Assembly (NCBI GenBank): GCA_963995505.1
Contig: OZ023189.1
Location: forward strand, 14,779,495-14,843,494
Direction: 5' to 3'
DNA from: Hypericum androsaemum
Taxonomy: Eukaryota > Streptophyta > Magnoliopsida > Malpighiales > Hypericaceae
DNA length: 64,000 nt
Part shown: piece after piece, positions 14,012 through 61,359 of the stretch
How positions within the stretch are numbered: the stretch's first letter is position 1
How the letters are laid out: the number at the start of each line of letters is the position of its first letter
Translations under genes and position numbers: made by a program
Notes under the pieces: model-generated
The model's database searches: none
Seen by the model: the letters and a program-made list of their open reading frames with translations, nothing else
Told to the model about the DNA's origin: nothing

Positions 14012-15547
14012 ATGGGTCATCACTCTTGCTGCAACAAACAGAAAGTGAAGAGAGGGCTTTGGTCACCCGAGGAAGATGAGAAGCTCATCAACTACATCTC
14101 CACCTACGGCCATGGCTGCTGGAGCTCCGTCCCTAAACTTGCTGGTATATATATATTTATATACAGATACATCAATTTCTTCTCATATTTATTGATCAAC
14201 CCGGATAAGAAATCACACCGACACCGAGGACGGACGAGGTTGCCGCTGTCAGCCTCGTCAATTTCTTCTCATGTTAATTTCCCTAGAACACAAAAAACCA
14301 AAACTACATATTATTTAGTTTTTTACCTACTTGTCAATTTCTTCTCCATGAATGCACTCAAATCATTAACTTCTTCCACTAGATTGTCTTTTGTATCTTT
14401 ATAATTAAATATTTGGTTTGTGTACGAATATTCATATGATGGCAGGCCTCCAGCGATGCGGAAAGAGCTGCAGATTACGATGGATAAACTACCTGAGGCC
14501 TGATCTCAAACGTGGAAGCTTTTCTCCTCAAGAAGCAGCGCTCATCATTGAACTCCATAGTGTTCTTGGCAACAGGTGTTTATATACAATTATATTAATT
14601 ACAGATAGTACAAGTTAATCATATAGAAAAATTGTACAACTCAATGATTATGTCGTTGAGAATTTGAATGTTGCAATTAGTTTAAAGTCTCAAATTAATT
14701 AATTCGGATATGTGCGTAATTCCCTTTAAATCATGGGTGCAGGTGGGCTCAGATAGCCAAGCACCTACCCGGAAGGACAGACAACGAAGTGAAGAACTTC
14801 TGGAACTCGAGCATTAAGAAGAAGCTCATATCTCACGACCATTTTGTTCCTGCCTTGGCCACTTTCGCCGGCGGCCGTGGTCCGAACAGCTCCGACGAGT
14901 CTTTCTTCTCTCTCAACCCGACAAACCCTAACAGCCACCTCATCTTTACCGGTCCCGGAGCTCCTCAGGATCACCACCAGCTCTACCTCCCTAGCCTTAA
15001 CAATGGAGATTGCTTCAAGCTTGATCTTCAATATCCTGGTTGTTACAATGTTGATTTGATCCATTTTGGGCCATCCCACCAAGTTGGTAATTTCCCTCCT
15101 CCATTACCAAGCAATTCTCCCTCCTCATCACTTGATCCACTATGGCCATTATTACCTAGCAATTTTCTGGCCCAACGAGAGGATCACCAGGTCCAAAGCA
15201 ATGGGACTAGCCCATATTACAATATTAATGGAGATAATAAGGTGATGCCCTTTTGTGAGAGCCAGGAAGTGAACAACAATTTGGTTCCTATCATTGATGG
15301 CAATCCTTGCACAATATTCCCATCTTCTGACCCACTAGCCACACTTGTGTGCTTCCCTTCCAGTTCGTATCCGCCAGAATCACACGTGGCGGCCGCAGAT
15401 CAGTCCGAGTACATTGATCCCATCATGTCATCGGTGCCATTGTCGTCGTTGTTGTCGCCATCGTCCTCATCGTCACTGCTGGCATTCCCAAATGGTCAAT
15501 TTGTTGGAAACCCTATAGTTCCTCCTCCAAGCTGCTGGACTGCCTAG
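14012..15547 (+). CDS. MYB103: R2R3-MYB transcription factor, MYB103 type, 3 exons
   Basis: Exons 14012-14144, 14446-14575 and 14743-15547 join in phase to 355 residues. The R2 repeat starts at [12 protein letters not shown] with regular tryptophans; intron 1 falls in the usual R2R3 place just before [12 protein letters not shown], and intron 2 before [20 protein letters not shown] of R3. The N-terminus [17 protein letters not shown] and the R3 end [13 protein letters not shown] match Arabidopsis MYB103, a nuclear activator in the secondary-wall network linked to syringyl lignin, as recalled from the family. The C-terminal half is Pro/Ser/Asn-rich, typical of an activation region, with no stop or frameshift. 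Splice sites are GT-AG. MYB80 and other MGHHSCC MYBs are the alternatives, less likely from the R3 text. Confidence 0.9.
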
Positions 15548-25842: not shown

Positions 25843-25959
25843 TAAGTACTAGACGCTTAATTTGGCTTACGAACTTGGATTAGGACATTTATTTTTGTTT
25901 ACTTGGTTTTTGTTACTTAGTACCTTTGTTTCTTGTCTTACAAGGTACTGATTTGTCGC

Positions 25960-28900
25960 ATGCGCTCAACTCGCTCAACGAACAACATTCCGATCGGAGT
26001 TGACGTTGACATTGGATATTTGGAAAGGGTATTGCGACAAGAGAGAAGGACACAAGCAAGGATGAATCAACAACCTCGTGTGCAAGAAGCTCCACAAGGA
26101 GCTCCGCAAGGCGATGCACAAGGAGTTGGAGTTCCTCGAAGGTCTCTCATGGACTATGCCAGGCCCACCTTGAGAGGGGCAATGTCTGGAGTTCCAAGGC
26201 CTACTATTCAAGCTAACACCTTCGAGATCAAGCCGGCGGTGATTCACATGCTCCAAGCTTCGGTCCAATTCTATGGATTACCGAATGAAGATCCCAACGA
26301 CCATATTGCTAATTTTTTGGAGATAGCTGACACCTTCAAGCACAATGGAGTTAGCGACGATGCTGTGAAGCTGAGGTTGTTCCCATTTACCTTGAAGGAC
26401 CAAGCAAAGATATGGTATAAGAATCTCGTTGGGACAACAATTACGACATGGGAAGAGCTAGCTAATGCCTTCCTTGACAAGTATTTTCCCTTCTCCAAGA
26501 CAAATAGACTCATCAAGGAGATTAACAACTTCCAACAATTCGAGAATGAGTCATTGAGTGAAGCTTGGGGGAGATTCAAGGGATTACAAAGGAGTTGTCC
26601 ACACCATAATATATCAGATGAGTCTTTACTCCAAACTTTTTACTTTGGTCTTGGACCCTCTACAAGGGGTACGGTTGATGCCGCCTCCAACGGATCCTTC
26701 TTAAGAAAATATAGGGATGATGCCCACCACATATTGGAGGAGTTGGCGGCTACAAACATTCTAATGGCCAATGAGAGAGCTAGGCAACCGAGTAAGGAGC
26801 AAGTAGAAGTGATTGATGTTGATATTGCCTCATCTATTCAAGCTCAATTGGCTTTGTTGGCAAAGAAGGTTAATGATCTAAGCTTGAACAAAAGCAATGT
26901 GGCGGCTGTGCAAACAAATTGTGAAGTTTGTGGCAATTTTGGCCATGAGATGAATGAGTGTGCCATGTTGGGCTCTTCTATGGAGCAAGTAAATTTTGTT
27001 GGTGGCCAAGGGCAAGTCCAAGTTCAAGGAGCAAATAGGATGGTAAACAACCCATATTCCTCTACCTACAATCCTGGTTGGAGAAATCATCCGAACTTCT
27101 CTTGGAGGGGTACCGGAGGAAGTAGTGGAGATAACATGGCAATTGTTCCGGATAAGGGACTTCCTCTTCGTAATGCACCTCAAGGGCCTCCTCCAGGTTT
27201 CCAACCACGTTTCTCTTTGATGGATCGGATGGGAGCTATTGAGGAGAGGATCGACAAGATGGACAAGTTCATACAAGAAGTCGGAGGGGTGGTTAGCCAA
27301 CAAGGCCAAATTTTGGCAGCCATACAACAACAAGGTGCACGACAGAACAACTTGGAGCAAATTCTCAAGGGACAAGCTACCGCGATGCATAATATGGAGA
27401 CACAACTTGGAGAAATTGCAAAGGCGAGTTCCCATAGAGCTTCCGGCTCCCTGCCAAGCTCCACAGAAACAAATCCTCGAGGAAATGTGAATGCAATTTC
27501 TTTGAGGAGTGGTAAGGAAATAGCTTCTCAAGAGGCACCCCGGAAGAACAATGACGATCCTATGGAAGCCAATGAGGAGGAGAAAGAAGTAGAGGTGGAA
27601 AAAGAGAAAAGTCCTTTTGCTGAGATTGAGGAAGAAGAGGAGTATGTGCCACCACCACCAAAGATCCCTCCTCTACCATTTCCTCAAAGAGTCAAAAAGA
27701 AGAACGTGATGGACGACAAATTTCTTGGCTTTATGGAGAAAATGAAAAATGTCCAGATTAGCGTCTCATTTCTGGAGATGTTGGATCAAGTTCCGCACTA
27801 CTCCAAGTTTTTGAAGGAACTCATTACAAAGAAGAGGAAGTGGGAAGATGGAGAGACGGTGGCCCTCACGGCGAAGTGTAGCTCTCTCATCTCAAAGGAT
27901 CTCCCGACAAAGTTAAAAGACCCGGGGAGTTTCACTATTCCTTGTTTCGTTGGAGATGTTGAGTTTCCTAAGTGCCTATGTGATTTAGGCGCTAGCATTA
28001 ACTTGATGCCTTTGTCTATTCTTAGGAAACTTGGCTTGTGTGAGGTGAAAGCCACATCTATGCGTCTCCAATTGGCGGACCAAACCATAAAGAAGCCATT
28101 TGGGGTCGTGGAGGATGTCTTGTTAAAGGTTGATAAGTTTATCTTCCCCGTGGACTTTGTGGTGCTGGATTTTGATGAAGACAAGAGTTGTCCATTAATA
28201 CTTGGCCGGCCGTTTCTTAATACGGCACGTGCCTTGGTGGATGTGCATGATGGAAGATTGGTCCTCCGAATAGGGGAGGAGAAGGTAGAGTTCAAGATGT
28301 CCAACGCAATGCGCCACCCTCTTGATGAAGGCGTGTGCATGAAAGTTGATGTCATGAAGGAATGCGTCCTCGAGTTTGGCAAGGAGAGCATATCAAGACT
28401 TGAAGATGGAATGGAGGAAGAAATAAATGAAGAACAAGAAGAGGATGACTTGGAAGAGTTCGAGGGAGAAGTTGATACAAAAAGTCTCCATGAGGATTTG
28501 GAGCTTGATTTAAAGTATCGAACTCCACCTTCCATCACTAAGGCTCCAAGCTTGGAGTTGAAAGAGTTACCCTCCCATTTGCGATATGCATTCTTAAAGG
28601 ATGAAGGAAGACTTCCCATTATCATCTCGAACAAGCTCTCTAAGGAGCAAGAGAAGAGGGTGCTTGAAATCGTCAACAAACGGATTAAGGCCATGGCTTG
28701 GCAAATATTCGATATCAAGGGGATAAGTCCCGACATTGTTATGCATCACATCCATATGGAAGAGGGAGCCAAGTCGAGGGTGGATAGGCAAAGACGATTG
28801 AATCCCAACATGAAAGAAGTTGTAAAGAAGGAGGTGATCAAGCTACTCGAAGCGGGCATAATTTATCCCATCTCGGATAGTGAGTGGGTAAGCCCGATCC

Positions 28901-31455
28901 ATTGTGTTCCAAAGAAAGGAGGAATGACTGTTGTGATCAATGATGAGGGTGAGCTCATTTCCACAAGAACTGTGACTGGATGGAGGGTATGCGTGGACTA
29001 CCGAAAGTTGAATGATGCCACACGTAAGGATCATTTTCCTTTGCCATTCATTGATCAAATGTTGGAGAGAATTTCAGGGTATTCTCACTATTGCTTTTTA
29101 GATGGGTACTCGGGTTACAACCAAATTGCAATATACCCAAGAGATCAAGAGAAGACCTCTTTCACTTGTCCTTTTGGTATTTTTGCCTATCGACGAATGC
29201 CTTTTGGATTGAGTTGTGCTCCTGCAACATTCCAACGATGCATGGAGGCTATCTTTTGGGGAATGAATGAGAGAATTATGGAGATCTTCATGGATGATTT
29301 CTCGGTATTTGGAGACTCCTTTGATAGCTGCTTGGCAAATTTGGACAAGGTCTTGGAAAGATGTGAAGAGAAGAACCTCGTTCTCAATTGGGAGAAATGT
29401 CATTTCATGGTAGATGAAGGGATAGTTCTTGGGCATAAGATCTCCCGAGCTGGCATAGAGGTGGACAGAGCCAAGACGGAAGCAATAGAGAAGATGGAAG
29501 CACCGACTTCAGTTAAAGGAGTAAGAGCTTTTCTTGGCCATGCCGGTTTCTACCGAAGATTCATCAAGAATTTTTCTCTTATCGCGAAGCCGCTAACTAA
29601 TTTGCTTGTGAAGGATGTACCCTTTGATTTTGATGAACCATGCCTTCAAGCATTTGATACTTTGAAAAAAGCTCTTGTCACAGCTCCGGTTATCTCTTCT
29701 CCGGATTGGACGCTGCCATTTGAGATGATGTGTGATGCGAGCGACATTGCACTGGGATGTGTGCTTGGTCAAAAGAAGGAGGGGAAGCTTCATGTCATCT
29801 ACTATGCAAGTAGAGTGCTGGCGGGCGCCCAACTAAATTACACAACCACCGAGAAGGAGTTGCTTGCGGTCGTGTATGCATGTGACAAGTTTCGACCATA
29901 TCTACTTGGGTCGAAAGTGATCGTCTATACTGATCATGCGGCTTTGAGGTACTTATTTTCCAAACAAGATGCTAAGCCGCGACTCATCCGGTGGATTTTA
30001 TTGCTCCAAGAATTTGACTTGTCCATCAAGGATAAGAAGGGTTCGGAAAATGTGGTCGCGGACCATCTCTCTCGACTAGAGAGCAGTGATGGAATGGAAA
30101 CTCATGGAAAGATCAAAGAAGAGTTTCCGGATGAGGAGTTGATGAGCTTGAATAATGTGGAAGCACCTTGGTATGCTGATTTCGCCAACTTCCTAGTTGG
30201 GGGGATTATTCCTATGGATTTGAGCTACCCCCAACGCAAGAAGTTCATAAGGGATTCTCAACTCTATGTTTGGGATGAGCCTTACCTTTTTAAGAGGTGT
30301 AGTGATGGGTTGCTTCGACGGTGCATTGCGGATGATGAAGTGATGAATATTCTGGAGCAATGTCATAGTACTCCATATTCCGGTCACTATGGAGCAACCA
30401 GGACAGCATCACGAGTCTTTGAATGTGGGTTTTATTGGCCTAACATTTTCAAGGATGCTCGTGAGTTTGTTGCTCAGTGCGATCGATGCCAAAGGACCGG
30501 CAACATTTCAAAGAGGAATGAGATGCCTCTCTCTGGAATTCTAGAGGTGGAACTCTTTGACGTTTGGGGGTTGGACTTTATGGGACCCTTCCCAACCTCT
30601 AATGGCAACAAGTATATCTTGGTGGGAGTGGACTACGTATCTAAGTGGGTGGAAGCCTGGGCATCACCAACCAATGATGCTAAGGTGGTCATTCGCTTTA
30701 TCAAAAAGCTCTTCTCAAGATTTGGAGTGCCGAGGGCAATCATAAGCGATGGCGGTTCACACTTTTGCAACCGACCATTTGAGATTCTATTGAAGAGGTA
30801 TGGGGTCACTCACAAGGTTGCTACACCTTATCACCCTCAAACAAGTGGGCAAGTTGAACTCTCCAACCGAGAATTGAAGAAGATCCTTGAAAAGACGGTT
30901 GGAGGAGCAAGAAAAGATTGGGCCAACAAGCTTGATGATGCTTTATGGGCATACCGGACGGCATTCAAAACGCCTATCGGGATGTCTCCATACAAACTTG
31001 TTTATGGCAAGGCGTGCCACCTCCCCGTAGAGCTAGAGCACCGAGCATTTTGGGCCATCAAGACCCTAAATTATGACTACAAGAAAGCCGGTGAGCGAAG
31101 GGTGTTGCAACTTGAAGAGCTGGACGAAATCCGTGACATGGCATTTGAGAGCTCTAGGCTTTACAAGGAGAAGACGAAAAGGTCACATGATGCCCACATT
31201 GTGAAGAAAGAGTTCAAGGAGGGTGATCAAGTACTACTTTACAACTCCCGATTGAGACTTTTTCCGGGAAAGCTCAAGTCAAAATGGAGTGGCCCATTCC
31301 AAGTTGTGAGGATATTTCCATTCGGAGCCCTTGAATTAGAAAGAAGTGATGGAGGAGTCTTCAAGGTGAATGGCCAAAGGTGCAAGATTTACCTTGGTGG
31401 GAATATTGAACGACAAGCGGAAATACAATCCATCACCTCACCCTCAAATGCATGA
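25960..31455 (+). CDS. Athila gag-pol polyprotein
   Basis: A single uninterrupted frame of 1,831 residues from the first ATG (25960). The frame opens a little upstream, but only with non-ATG codons. Gag: retrotransposon gag domain ([16 protein letters not shown] ... WYKNLV) with a CCHC knuckle [14 protein letters not shown], then coiled-coil and acidic linker. Protease: [14 protein letters not shown], with the D-L-G-A-S active-site form. Reverse transcriptase: [25 protein letters not shown] and the catalytic FMDDFSVF. RNase [15 protein letters not shown] and [10 protein letters not shown]. Integrase: H-H-C-C zinc finger ending CDRCQRTG, then a D-D-E core ([16 protein letters not shown], and the glutamate in [10 protein letters not shown]), then a C-terminal domain. 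No stop or frameshift, in line with recent insertion. No chromodomain was seen. Confidence 0.97.
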
Positions 31456-35148: not shown

Positions 35149-35450
35149 ATATGCCCAAACTTTGACTGGCCAACTAAACCAGTTACGTCATCAAAATTTG
35201 ATGACGTTGTACCTCTCCACTTTCTCTTCTCTCTCCTTTTTCTCTCTCTCCTTGCCAACATCCAAGTCAAATCAGAATAGAACAAATGCCACCCAAAAAG
35301 TCGTCCAACATTAAAACTCACGAATACTCCATTTTGATCTACTCTCTAATTTTACATGCCGCTAAATAATTCAAAAAGCCCAAAACACCCTTGCAAGAAA
35401 GATGACAAAACAATAAGTGCAGCAGTAAAAAAGAGAGAAGAAAACAAAAA

Positions 35451-36644
35451 GGGAAAAGTTCACTTTAGTACCCTGTAGTATTGACTAAAATCACTTTAGT
35501 ACCCTGTGGTAAAAAACCGATCAATCGAGTCATACTTATTCCAATTAACATCAAAAAGGGCCTCGGGCAGCTGCCCGACCATGTGGAACAGCCACATCAC
35601 CAAAAATTGATGATGTGGCACCACGTGGACTCTCTCCCACTTCCCCTCTCTTCTCTTTCCTCCTTTTCCTCTTCTTCTTCTTCTTCTTCTTCTTCCCCTC
35701 TCTCACCTCTCGCCTTCCTCCATAACCCAATATTCTCCTCGTAAAGGAAAAATGTACGGAACTACGATGATGGCCGCCCTAGAGAACCTCAGGCGACAGC
35801 TCCTAGACGACAATGTTACTGATCCCCCGACGACACCCTCCAGCTCCCCATCGGACGACAGATTCAACGACCTCCTACTCGGCGAGAGCTGGGGGGAGCT
35901 GCCGCTGAAGGTGAACGACTCCGATGACATGATCGTGTACAGCGCCCTGGCCGACGCGGCCAGCTCCGGCTGGGTCCCGCCTCAAGAAGACGATCCCCTC
36001 AGGGCGGAGCCGGTGGGGTTTGTCGAGGCGGCGGCGAAGTACAAGGGCGTGAGGAGGCGGCCGTGGGGGAAGTACGCGGCGGAGATAAGGGACCCGAAGA
36101 GGAACGGCGCGCGGGTGTGGCTTGGGACCTATGACACACCCGACGGCGCGGCGATGGCTTACGACCGCGCCGCTTTCGAGATGAGGGGGTCCAAGGCCAA
36201 GCTCAACTTCCCCCACCTTATCGAGTCGAATGTGGCCGGCGCCTGTGACGGAAGGGTGACGTCACGGAAGCGGGGTTGCCCCGCTGCGCCGTCAGTGGTT
36301 GATTGTTACGATCACGGAGGCTACCGCCCGCTGTATCTGCCGGAGCCGGAGTCCAAGAGGTTGTTGGGTTATGGAGGAAGGCGAGAGGTGAGAGAGGGGA
36401 AGAAGAAGAAGAAGAGGAGGAGGAGGAAAGAGAAGAGAGGGGAAGTGGGAGAGAGTCCACGTGGTGCCACATCATCAATTTTTGGTGATGTGGCTGTTCC
36501 ACATGGTCGGGCAGCTCTGGGCAGCTGCCCGAGGCCCTTTTTGATGTTAATTGGAATAAGTATGACTCGATTGATCAATTTTTTACCACAGGGTACTAAA
36601 ATGATTTTGGGCGATACTACAGGGTACTAAAGTGGACTTTTCCC
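35451..36644. mobile_element. MULE-B: Pack-MULE carrying an ERF gene
   Basis: 1,194-bp element with long TIRs, 35451-35730 and 36364-36644 (about 280 bp each, highly similar), starting GGGAAAAGTYCACTTTAGTA. A perfect 9-bp TSD AAACAAAAA lies at 35442-35450 and 36645-36653. The TIRs contain a CTT microsatellite, a G-box core CACGTG (~35624 and its mirror) and GGGCAGCTGCCC palindromes; the right arm has an extra ~10-bp duplication. The unique middle (35731-36363, 633 bp, markedly GC-rich) is almost wholly ERF coding sequence. No transposase, so it would need help in trans. The ends match MULE-A, making both members of one family. It lies in MULE-A's interior. Confidence 0.93.
35752..36630 (+). 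CDS. Captured group IX AP2/ERF factor with TIR-encoded C-terminus
   Basis: Open frame of 292 residues inside MULE-B. Start [18 protein letters not shown] fits group IX ERFs. Residues 46-74 ([18 protein letters not shown]...) match their N-terminal motif; the AP2/ERF domain spans about 97-154 ([48 protein letters not shown]), a DNA-binding fold that reads GCC-box-like sites in stress and ethylene/jasmonate responses. All key ERF residues (RG, WG, AEIRD, RAYD-like) are present; ERF13 is the closest I recall. Residues 1-204 come from the captured segment. From Leu205 the frame enters the right TIR, giving 88 new residues with the basic run [14 protein letters not shown] (216-229), and stops at 36628-36630. 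Expression is unknown; the native C-terminus may be lost. Confidence 0.88.
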
Positions 36645-36653
36645 AAACAAAAA

Positions 36654-37235
36654 AGAGGTTAATTATTAACGGAAGGAAAAGACCCAAAACCCTCCAAGCG
36701 ACAATAGCCAAAACCTTATCTTCCTTCCCAATCCTACACACTCAGTAGCTCTCCGTCTCCCTCTCTCTCGCCAGTAAGGAGGACGAGGAAGGGCCCACTA
36801 TTGGGTAATTTTCATTCCTCAGTTTCTAGATTATTATATCCTCCTCCCGTAAGACTCGTGAATTTGGACATATGGGTTTCGTTCTTTATATCTCTGTTGG
36901 TGTATTTGTTCGGTTCCCCTGTTGGTATCTTTGTCTTCTGTTTGTTCTGTTTGGGAAATGGTGAATTTCAGGGGAAACCCATATTGGAAAGGAGTAGAAT
37001 CGTTTGCTTGAATGAGTTGGTTGGTTAGTTCAGATGTTGAGTTGGTTAGGTGCTTTGATTGATTGATTAATTTGCGGTTTTTGGGCCGTAAGAACGAGGA
37101 GAAACGGGAATGAAAGAGGTTGGGAAGAACGTAGTAAACTTCCCGGATGGATTGTTCGTTTAGTTTCCGTGGCCATTGATGCATGAACTAATAAGAGAGC
37201 AGCATCTCATGATTTGGAAATGGGAGTTGGAGTGT
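36654..37235. other. MULE-A interior, possible captured gene leader
   Basis: Contains CT-rich text (36740-36775), a GT-type donor after GGGCCCACTATTGG (~36804) and T-rich intron-like sequence, as in a 5'UTR with a leader intron. No long frame; source gene unknown. Confidence 0.4.
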
Positions 37236-37702
37236 GAAGTGTTTTCTGGTTTAACTTGGATGTTGGCAAGGAGGGAGGAGGGGAAAAAGAGAGGAGAAGG
37301 CGGAGAGGTGCCACGTCATCAAAGTGGCTGGTCTAGTTGGCCGGGCAGGTCCGAGCAAGTCCGGGCAGCTGTCCGTGGATCTAAGTAATAGTAATTGGTT
37401 ACGGTTTGATTCAATTGATGAATTTTTTATCATAGGGTACTAAAGTAATTTCTTACGATACCATGAAGTACTAAAATGGACTTTTCCCTAATTTATTTTA
37501 GCAATTTCTTATGAGAAATAATTACCTCAAATTTAATACTTCATTAAATGAACACGTTAGTTTAATAGGAGCATATTCGAGTAATAATACATTTGTACTC
37601 TTTTGAACAACTTGTGTCAGATAAGTGGGTTTTTGAACAACTTATCAAACTTAAGATTCGTAATTGGAGAATACAATACTTCGTGCAAAATTAAATAATT
37701 AC

Positions 37703-60313: not shown

Positions 60314-60649
60314 GTTGGGACCAACATAAAATTTTTCGAACCAGCGGGGATCAACTTGCATATCCCATTTAGGGGGAGAGTATTTATTTATTGGGTAGCT
60401 AACTACTCTTTTTACTATATTTTCATGCAAGTTGGATTTAACAATATCACTATATATTTAACCAAATAAAGTGGGCTCTAATATTATAATATTCCGAATT
60501 ATTTGTAAAATCTTTTGAGTACTAATCCCACATTTCGAGTCAAATAATTGACCTATAGGCCCGCTACTCCTATATTGAATCATTAGGTGTAACAATGTGA
60601 CTAACAGGTCAAACACTTTTCATAGACATGCTTTTTTTTTTTATTTTAG

Positions 60650-61359
60650 GAACCTTCAACACTGCTGAGGAAGCTGCAAGAGCTTATGATGCTGAGGCAC
60701 GTCGGATCCGGGGCAAGAAAGCTAAAGTGAACTTCCCTGATGAAGCTTCCCGTGCTTCACCTAAGCGTCAGTCCAAGGCAAACTCTCAGAAAGCAGCTCC
60801 TAAGGCTAACATGAACCAGAATTTTGGTACCACGAGCATGGAAGATGATTTCTTCAGTACTATGAACTTTGTTGAGGAGAAACCATCAATTGATCAGTTC
60901 AGGTTTTCAGAAGCCTACATGACCACTGGAGATGATGGGGTCAAGTCTCTCGCTCCATGCGATGATGCTCGTATTCTTTTCAGTTCTGACCAGAACTCAT
61001 TTGATTGTTCCGAGTTTGGCTGGGGAGAATAGGCACCAAAGACTCCTGAAATCTCATCTGTTCTCTCAGCCACTGCAGAAGTTGATGAATCTTTGTTCAA
61101 GGAGGATGCTAACCCAAAGAAGAAACTGAAACCCTGCTCTGACGATGACGCTGTTGTTGCTAGAGGCAGCGATGAATCAATGTCCGAGGATTTGCTGGGG
61201 TTCGACAACTCTATGAACTTTCAGATGCCATTTCTTGAGAACAACTGGGCCGCTTCACTTGATAGCTTCCTTAATGGAGACTCGACTCAGGATGGCGAAA
61301 ACGGAATGGACCTTTGGAGCTTCGACGATATTCCTGCCTTTTTCGGCGGGGCCTACTAA
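60650..61359 (+). pseudogene. Group VII ERF (RAP2.2/RAP2.12-like) 3' part, with in-frame stop
   Basis: Begins within an AP2 domain ([33 protein letters not shown]) right after a T-rich tract ending TTTTAG, so the exon may start inside the WLG|TF turn. The tail carries group VII features: [33 protein letters not shown] and the terminal LWSFDDIPAFF. These factors activate hypoxia genes and are normally controlled by an N-terminal MCGGAI degron. That N-terminus and the first half of the AP2 domain are not found upstream, where a TIR element sits, and TAG at 61030-61032 breaks the frame after FGWGE. I see no way to make a working DNA-binding domain. An upstream exon lost to deletion is the simplest reading. 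Confidence 0.82.

Follow-up and report, generated by a model that had tools for sequence, protein, structure and literature searches.

A Mutator-like element carrying the start and AP2 domain of an ERF gene at three sites in the genome of Hypericum androsaemum

Positions 35451-36644 of the window, the whole stretch of 64,000 nucleotides analysed here, form a complete non-autonomous Mutator-like element (MULE) with a GC-rich insert of 633 bp between inverted ends. Three whole elements of this kind were found in the genome: the window copy on C10, a second at C5:18286149-18287377 with target site duplication (TSD) AAAAATTAA, and a third on the minus strand at C7:2723350-2724600 with TSD TATAAAAAA. 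What had been noted of this element holds, and to read its structure as a Pack-MULE is right, while the functional reading of the captured ERF is unproven. We regard the element as very probably a young, multicopy, non-autonomous Pack-MULE whose explanation requires no function in the host.

Structure of the element and its insertion site

The features of the window copy and of the sequence around it are given below.

About 35152-35274, plus strand: partial left terminal inverted repeat (TIR) of an outer element, score 139, with 100 shuffles reaching no more than 73
About 35275-35441, plus strand: outer cargo on the left side of the ERF element, matching C20 sequence that lies upstream of an mTERF ORF, gappy by the junction
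35442-35450, no strand: left copy of the TSD AAACAAAAA, perfect over 9 bp by direct reading
35451-35730, plus strand: left TIR, 280 bp, of a family present genome-wide
35728-36360, plus strand: donor-derived stretch, 24 leader bases and 203 codons of the ERF gene on C1 by alignment, 97% DNA identity to that gene
35752-36630, plus strand: ORF of 292 amino acids, ERF part and TIR-encoded tail
36037-36216, plus strand: AP2 DNA-binding domain, residues 96-155, amino acids the same as in the donor
36361-36627, plus strand: tail read from the right TIR, 89 codons, with a Lys/Arg-rich run
36364-36644, minus strand: right TIR, 281 bp, its inner reach extending to 36357 by comparison with sister elements
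36645-36653, no strand: right copy of the TSD AAACAAAAA, perfect over 9 bp by direct reading
36654-37223, plus strand: outer cargo on the right side of the ERF element, a 79% match to C20:2816602-2817134, upstream of the mTERF ORF
About 37224-37488 (inner edge approximate), minus strand: right TIR of the outer element

MULEs are recognised by long TIRs and by a TSD of 9 bp (8-11), and both are present here, with a different TSD at each of the window, C5 and C7 copies. The element begins with GGGAAAAGTTCACTTTAGTACCC, which has its inverted counterpart at the other end, and its arms (280 vs 281 bp) show 9 mismatches in 271 aligned bases together with 19 indel columns. Alignment of the arms and direct reading of AAACAAAAA thus bear out the long TIRs and perfect 9-bp TSD of an earlier note on this DNA. 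The same note placed the insert at 35731-36363; its size of 633 bp and its GC-richness stand, but its edges move, since the donor part is 35728-36360 and the final TTG belongs to the TIR. In sister elements the inner TIR, without the ERF cargo, reads CATAACCCAACAACCTCAAAAATCCC. As a separate observation, the mismatches between the arms cluster outward, seven of the nine falling in the outer 68 bp (35451-35518 vs 36577-36644) with the inner part nearly identical. The copies on C5 (9 of 11 mismatches in the outer 100) and C7 (6 of 7 in the outer 65) lean the same way, perhaps through conversion between the arms.

Two further properties make a MULE a Pack-MULE. One is cargo from a host gene elsewhere in place of a transposase, and here AP2 is the sole Pfam domain in the ORF and a donor free of TIRs lies on C1. 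The other is transposition after capture into several copies, which is seen in three whole elements with three TSDs. The chimera recurs at two further sites, each with a different TSD, and is therefore not an assembly artefact, one of the two outcomes that the earlier note had said would undo its reading. Neither outcome occurred, because the genome does contain a donor, and related MULEs as well. A wrong joining of TIRs or insert is scarcely conceivable given one chimera at three sites, each with its own TSD, a TIR-free donor, and on C20 a diverged counterpart of the locus without the insertion, though gappy beside the junction.

The window copy is itself nested in an older, decayed Pack-MULE at 35152-37488, the outer left end of which is missing. 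That this is a Pack-MULE inside a Pack-MULE follows from the C20-matching cargo and the outer TIRs, which flank the ERF element on both sides. On C20 the ORF next to the matching sequence encodes an mTERF protein (Pfam E 7.6e-60). The C20 sequence continues past the insertion point with no ERF element and is therefore a diverged equivalent of the unoccupied site, in an alignment that is gappy beside the junction and carries no shuffle control. Elsewhere in the window, one uninterrupted frame of 1840 amino acids (25933-31455) resembles, on inspection, the polyprotein of a Gypsy-type retrotransposon, 14789-15544 is a MYB exon, and 60628-61032 is an AP2-type exon, by eye like a group VII ERF and unrelated to the captured gene.

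The donor gene, the capture and the TIR family

The host genome (385 Mb) was searched at the DNA level, with 40 of 2819 first-look candidates scored, so that counts from this search are lower bounds. At least 151 matches to the element were found, most of them to the TIR. One match, C1:26077222-26077857, covers the insert only and has no TIRs. This is the donor that the earlier note had proposed to look for in the host: an intact single-exon ERF gene with an uninterrupted ORF of 239 amino acids, 96% identical to the copy, and a TATAAA 84 bp upstream of its ATG. When the genome was scanned at the protein level, with 150 of 253 candidates scored, the donor and the three copies ranked first at 96-100% identity, and the next locus was another ERF, at 66% identity, about 8 kb from the donor.

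The captured piece has 24 leader bases, 3 of which the TIR also has, and continues from the ATG through the N-terminal conserved region and the entire AP2 domain for a total of 203 codons; the donor's TATA box and its last 35 codons were left out. The earlier description of a whole ERF start and DNA-binding domain is accurate for these two parts, but the ERF is not whole, as its 35 C-terminal codons are absent. One donor codon is missing from all three copies, which argues for a single capture followed by transposition, and the C5 and C7 copies have 9-bp TSDs of their own, so the element moved after the capture. At the junctions the TIR and the donor share CAA (3 bases) on the left and CCTC (4 bases) on the right; these microhomologies fit, and may reflect, template switching during gap repair. 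Among animal Pack-TIRs, according to the excerpted text of PMC8277862, 190 (67.6%) have microhomology at one or both breakpoints.

The events may be put in order as follows. A MULE of a multicopy TIR family would have copied the 5' part of the single-exon ERF on C1 into itself, once, probably by switching template at short microhomologies in gap repair. A transposase acting in trans presumably mobilised the chimera, now present at three sites, and the window copy was inserted into an older Pack-MULE. That the frame is open is probably due in the main to the youth of the element and to the capture of one clean exon. If the element is transcribed, the transcript would most likely start from the TIR and would yield part of an ERF followed by a basic tail that the TIR encodes.

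In a protein tree built from 101 of 120 listed matches (the others were dropped for rank, length or AP2 motif number), the ERF branch measures 0.98 against a median of 0.08 and is the second longest of 102 rows. Decay after capture was rejected as the cause of this long branch: the donor is intact and 96% identical to the copy, and most of the divergence therefore predates the capture. A separate difference lies at codon 49, where the donor (L030 3618-4334) has Lys, the three copies have Glu and nearly all of 101 relatives have Asp or Glu; here the transposon copies may keep an older state of the gene.

Twenty stretches were fetched, namely the donor, the C5 and C7 copies and 17 other loci of the family. 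Paired TIRs with a perfect 9-bp TSD are present in 16 of the 19 non-donor stretches and, with other cargoes, in 14 of the 17 other family loci. Two loci (L036 and L042) showed no paired end within the fetched stretch, and at a third (L037) the script found no TSD. The cargo of L035 is the start of a SEC23 gene (L035 1189-1638; PDB Sec23A E 6.8e-28, also Pfam) and that of L033 the start of a UBA_4 protein (L033 1304-1678; E 7.5e-13). That of L034 (1565-2056) is the start of a protein without an assigned identity, L037-L041 carry cargo likewise unassigned, and the cargo of L043-L049 is rich in simple repeat. In L034 and L035 the frame also passes from an ATG into the TIR. Adjoining the SEC23 cargo is a piece of 211 bp (L035 1683-1893) that is 93-94% identical to L037 and L038, which suggests serial capture into one lineage.

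Elements of this Pack-MULE kind are already well known in plants. Those of rice and other plants were reportedly described by Jiang et al. in 2004 and 2011, and the present element shares with them its non-autonomous nature, long TIRs, 9-bp TSD, GC-rich cargo from a host gene elsewhere and copies with distinct TSDs. It differs from them in carrying nearly the whole coding sequence of a transcription factor with its start codon, open in 3 of 3 copies. The Pack-MULE work of Jiang et al. is cited in PMC13317346 and PMC4858842. The Genic-MULEs of Oryza, as excerpts of PMC4858842 present them, are likewise MULEs with an ORF from a parental gene and GC-rich parental sequence, but they are defined on annotated intact transcripts, whereas our evidence is the DNA. 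Capture of GC-rich gene sequence is already documented in those excerpts, and the present capture is therefore typical. Junction microhomology and repeated transposition, seen in distinct TSDs, are shared with the Ssk-FB4 Pack-MULEs of Drosophila and animal Pack-TIRs, in the account excerpted from PMC8277862; unlike our element, those are found in animals, and most single-copy Pack-TIRs are thought to arise without transposition. The titles and abstract openings among the literature matches listed, a scope outside which most subscription journals fall, name no ERF carried by a Pack-MULE.

Coding capacity and change among the copies

In the 204 codons from the ATG the GC content is 0.64 and GC3 is 0.81, in a window with a GC content of 0.387. 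One frame of the insert is free of stops while the other five have 5-10 each, and the 612-nt frame stays open in 3 of 2000 mononucleotide shuffles. From the ATG at 35752 the ORF crosses the right TIR and ends at a stop near the TIR end (36628-36630). A Pfam search identified AP2 (PF00847, E 2.3e-15, residues 96-147) and no other domain in the ORF, and with the donor alignment it confirms what the earlier note had read as a natural ATG, a full AP2 domain and an open frame. Relatives with solved structures include AtERF1 and ERF096. Among the best 120 of 6533 protein matches the relatives are mostly ERF13-, ERF1- and ERF2-like by name, and none is near-identical. The gene had been called a group IX ERF, and these matches fit that assignment.

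All 60 residues of the AP2 domain in the window copy are those of the donor, and the C5 copy is equally unchanged; the C7 copy has one change, V100M, at a column that is invariant in an alignment of 11 rows. The protein is not complete as in the donor, its last 35 codons being replaced by 89 TIR-encoded codons in the window copy. This tail has 86 codons in the C5 copy and 92 in the C7 copy, the tails differ between the copies, and among 18 candidates no protein sharing the tail was found at E up to 1. Upstream of the ERF start there are ATGs at 35581, 35610 and 35613, and none between 35613 and 35752.

Against the majority ancestor, the three copies show 24 changes, of which 10 alter an amino acid and 14 are silent; those of the window copy include changes at codons 30, 37, 39 and 83. 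A neutral simulation with randomly placed changes of matching mutation type and CpG context expects 14.3 +/- 2.35 amino-acid changes, so that the observed number has a one-sided P of 0.05, with values of 0.13-0.34 copy by copy. No stop is met in 50% of the simulated neutral histories, and the open frames are unsurprising because the copies carry few changes. Naive counts look stronger, both when restricted to the copies (N 10, S 10, omega 0.37-0.41, P 0.039-0.049) and over every branch, donor included (N 15, S 16, omega 0.35-0.39, P 0.004-0.009). We do not rely on them, because the donor branch represents a separate gene and because C:G to T:A makes up 20 of the 24 changes among the copies of a GC3-rich gene; constraint inferred from them was not accepted beside the matched simulation. 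Changes inside the AP2 domain (1 N, 4 S) do not differ significantly in kind from those outside it (9 N, 10 S; P 0.36). With gap columns, the GCAGCTGCCC indel region and a microsatellite left out, variable sites are not significantly different between TIR (22 of 420) and insert (24 of 633; P 0.28), nor are variable G/C sites (17 of 186 vs 23 of 407; P 0.16). On these figures the copies may be under weak constraint.

Possible consequences of the captured frame

The view of the ERF as a passenger has against it that all three frames are open and that all three AP2 domains are nearly unchanged, with the one change on C7, and that amino-acid changes are fewer than expected. The earlier note saw in the frame a credible new regulatory gene. 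On such a view the TIR would drive a truncated ERF that retains the conserved N-terminal region and the AP2 domain but not the C-terminus of the donor, and that would act at the sites of the donor's family or compete for them. The intact AP2 domains, the lack of an ATG between 35613 and the ERF start, the borderline deficit of amino-acid changes and the TIR promoters of other MULEs, which drive internal sequence according to the excerpted part of PMC3310237, all lend themselves to such a gene. We nevertheless think it unlikely: the simulation gives no more than the P values above, half of the neutral histories stay free of stops by chance with so few changes, the TATA box of the donor was left behind, V100M on C7 strikes an invariant column and the TIR tails differ from copy to copy. 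Equally improbable in our judgement is its fullest form, a mobile transcription-factor gene that, from one capture at three loci, would make an intact ERF DNA-binding protein with a TIR-encoded C-terminal tail, under weak selection and in competition with its source ERF genes.

The element could instead be a source of silencing, in which a methylated copy makes small RNAs, from a TIR read-through hairpin or from antisense, that might act on the donor ERF through its 97% identity. With their 280 bp the TIRs are able to pair into a long hairpin, the excess of C:G to T:A (20 of 24 changes) is as expected from methylation, and the conflict of Pack-TYPE elements with genes through small RNAs is discussed in the available text of PMC8903248. 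CpG sites, however, account for 10 of these 20 changes, which is not a significant enrichment (P 0.16), and we hold this outcome too to be improbable.

A young Pack-MULE carrying part of a host gene is thus the reading that we prefer. The capture is cleanly resolved, with its donor, both junctions, three copies and a nested site, and a whole DNA-binding domain has been made mobile together with its start codon. An open frame can ride along without selection, which is not required when the capture is young and its source gene has a single exon. If any of the copies were translated, the element would provide a direct test of whether transposons seed new transcription factors.
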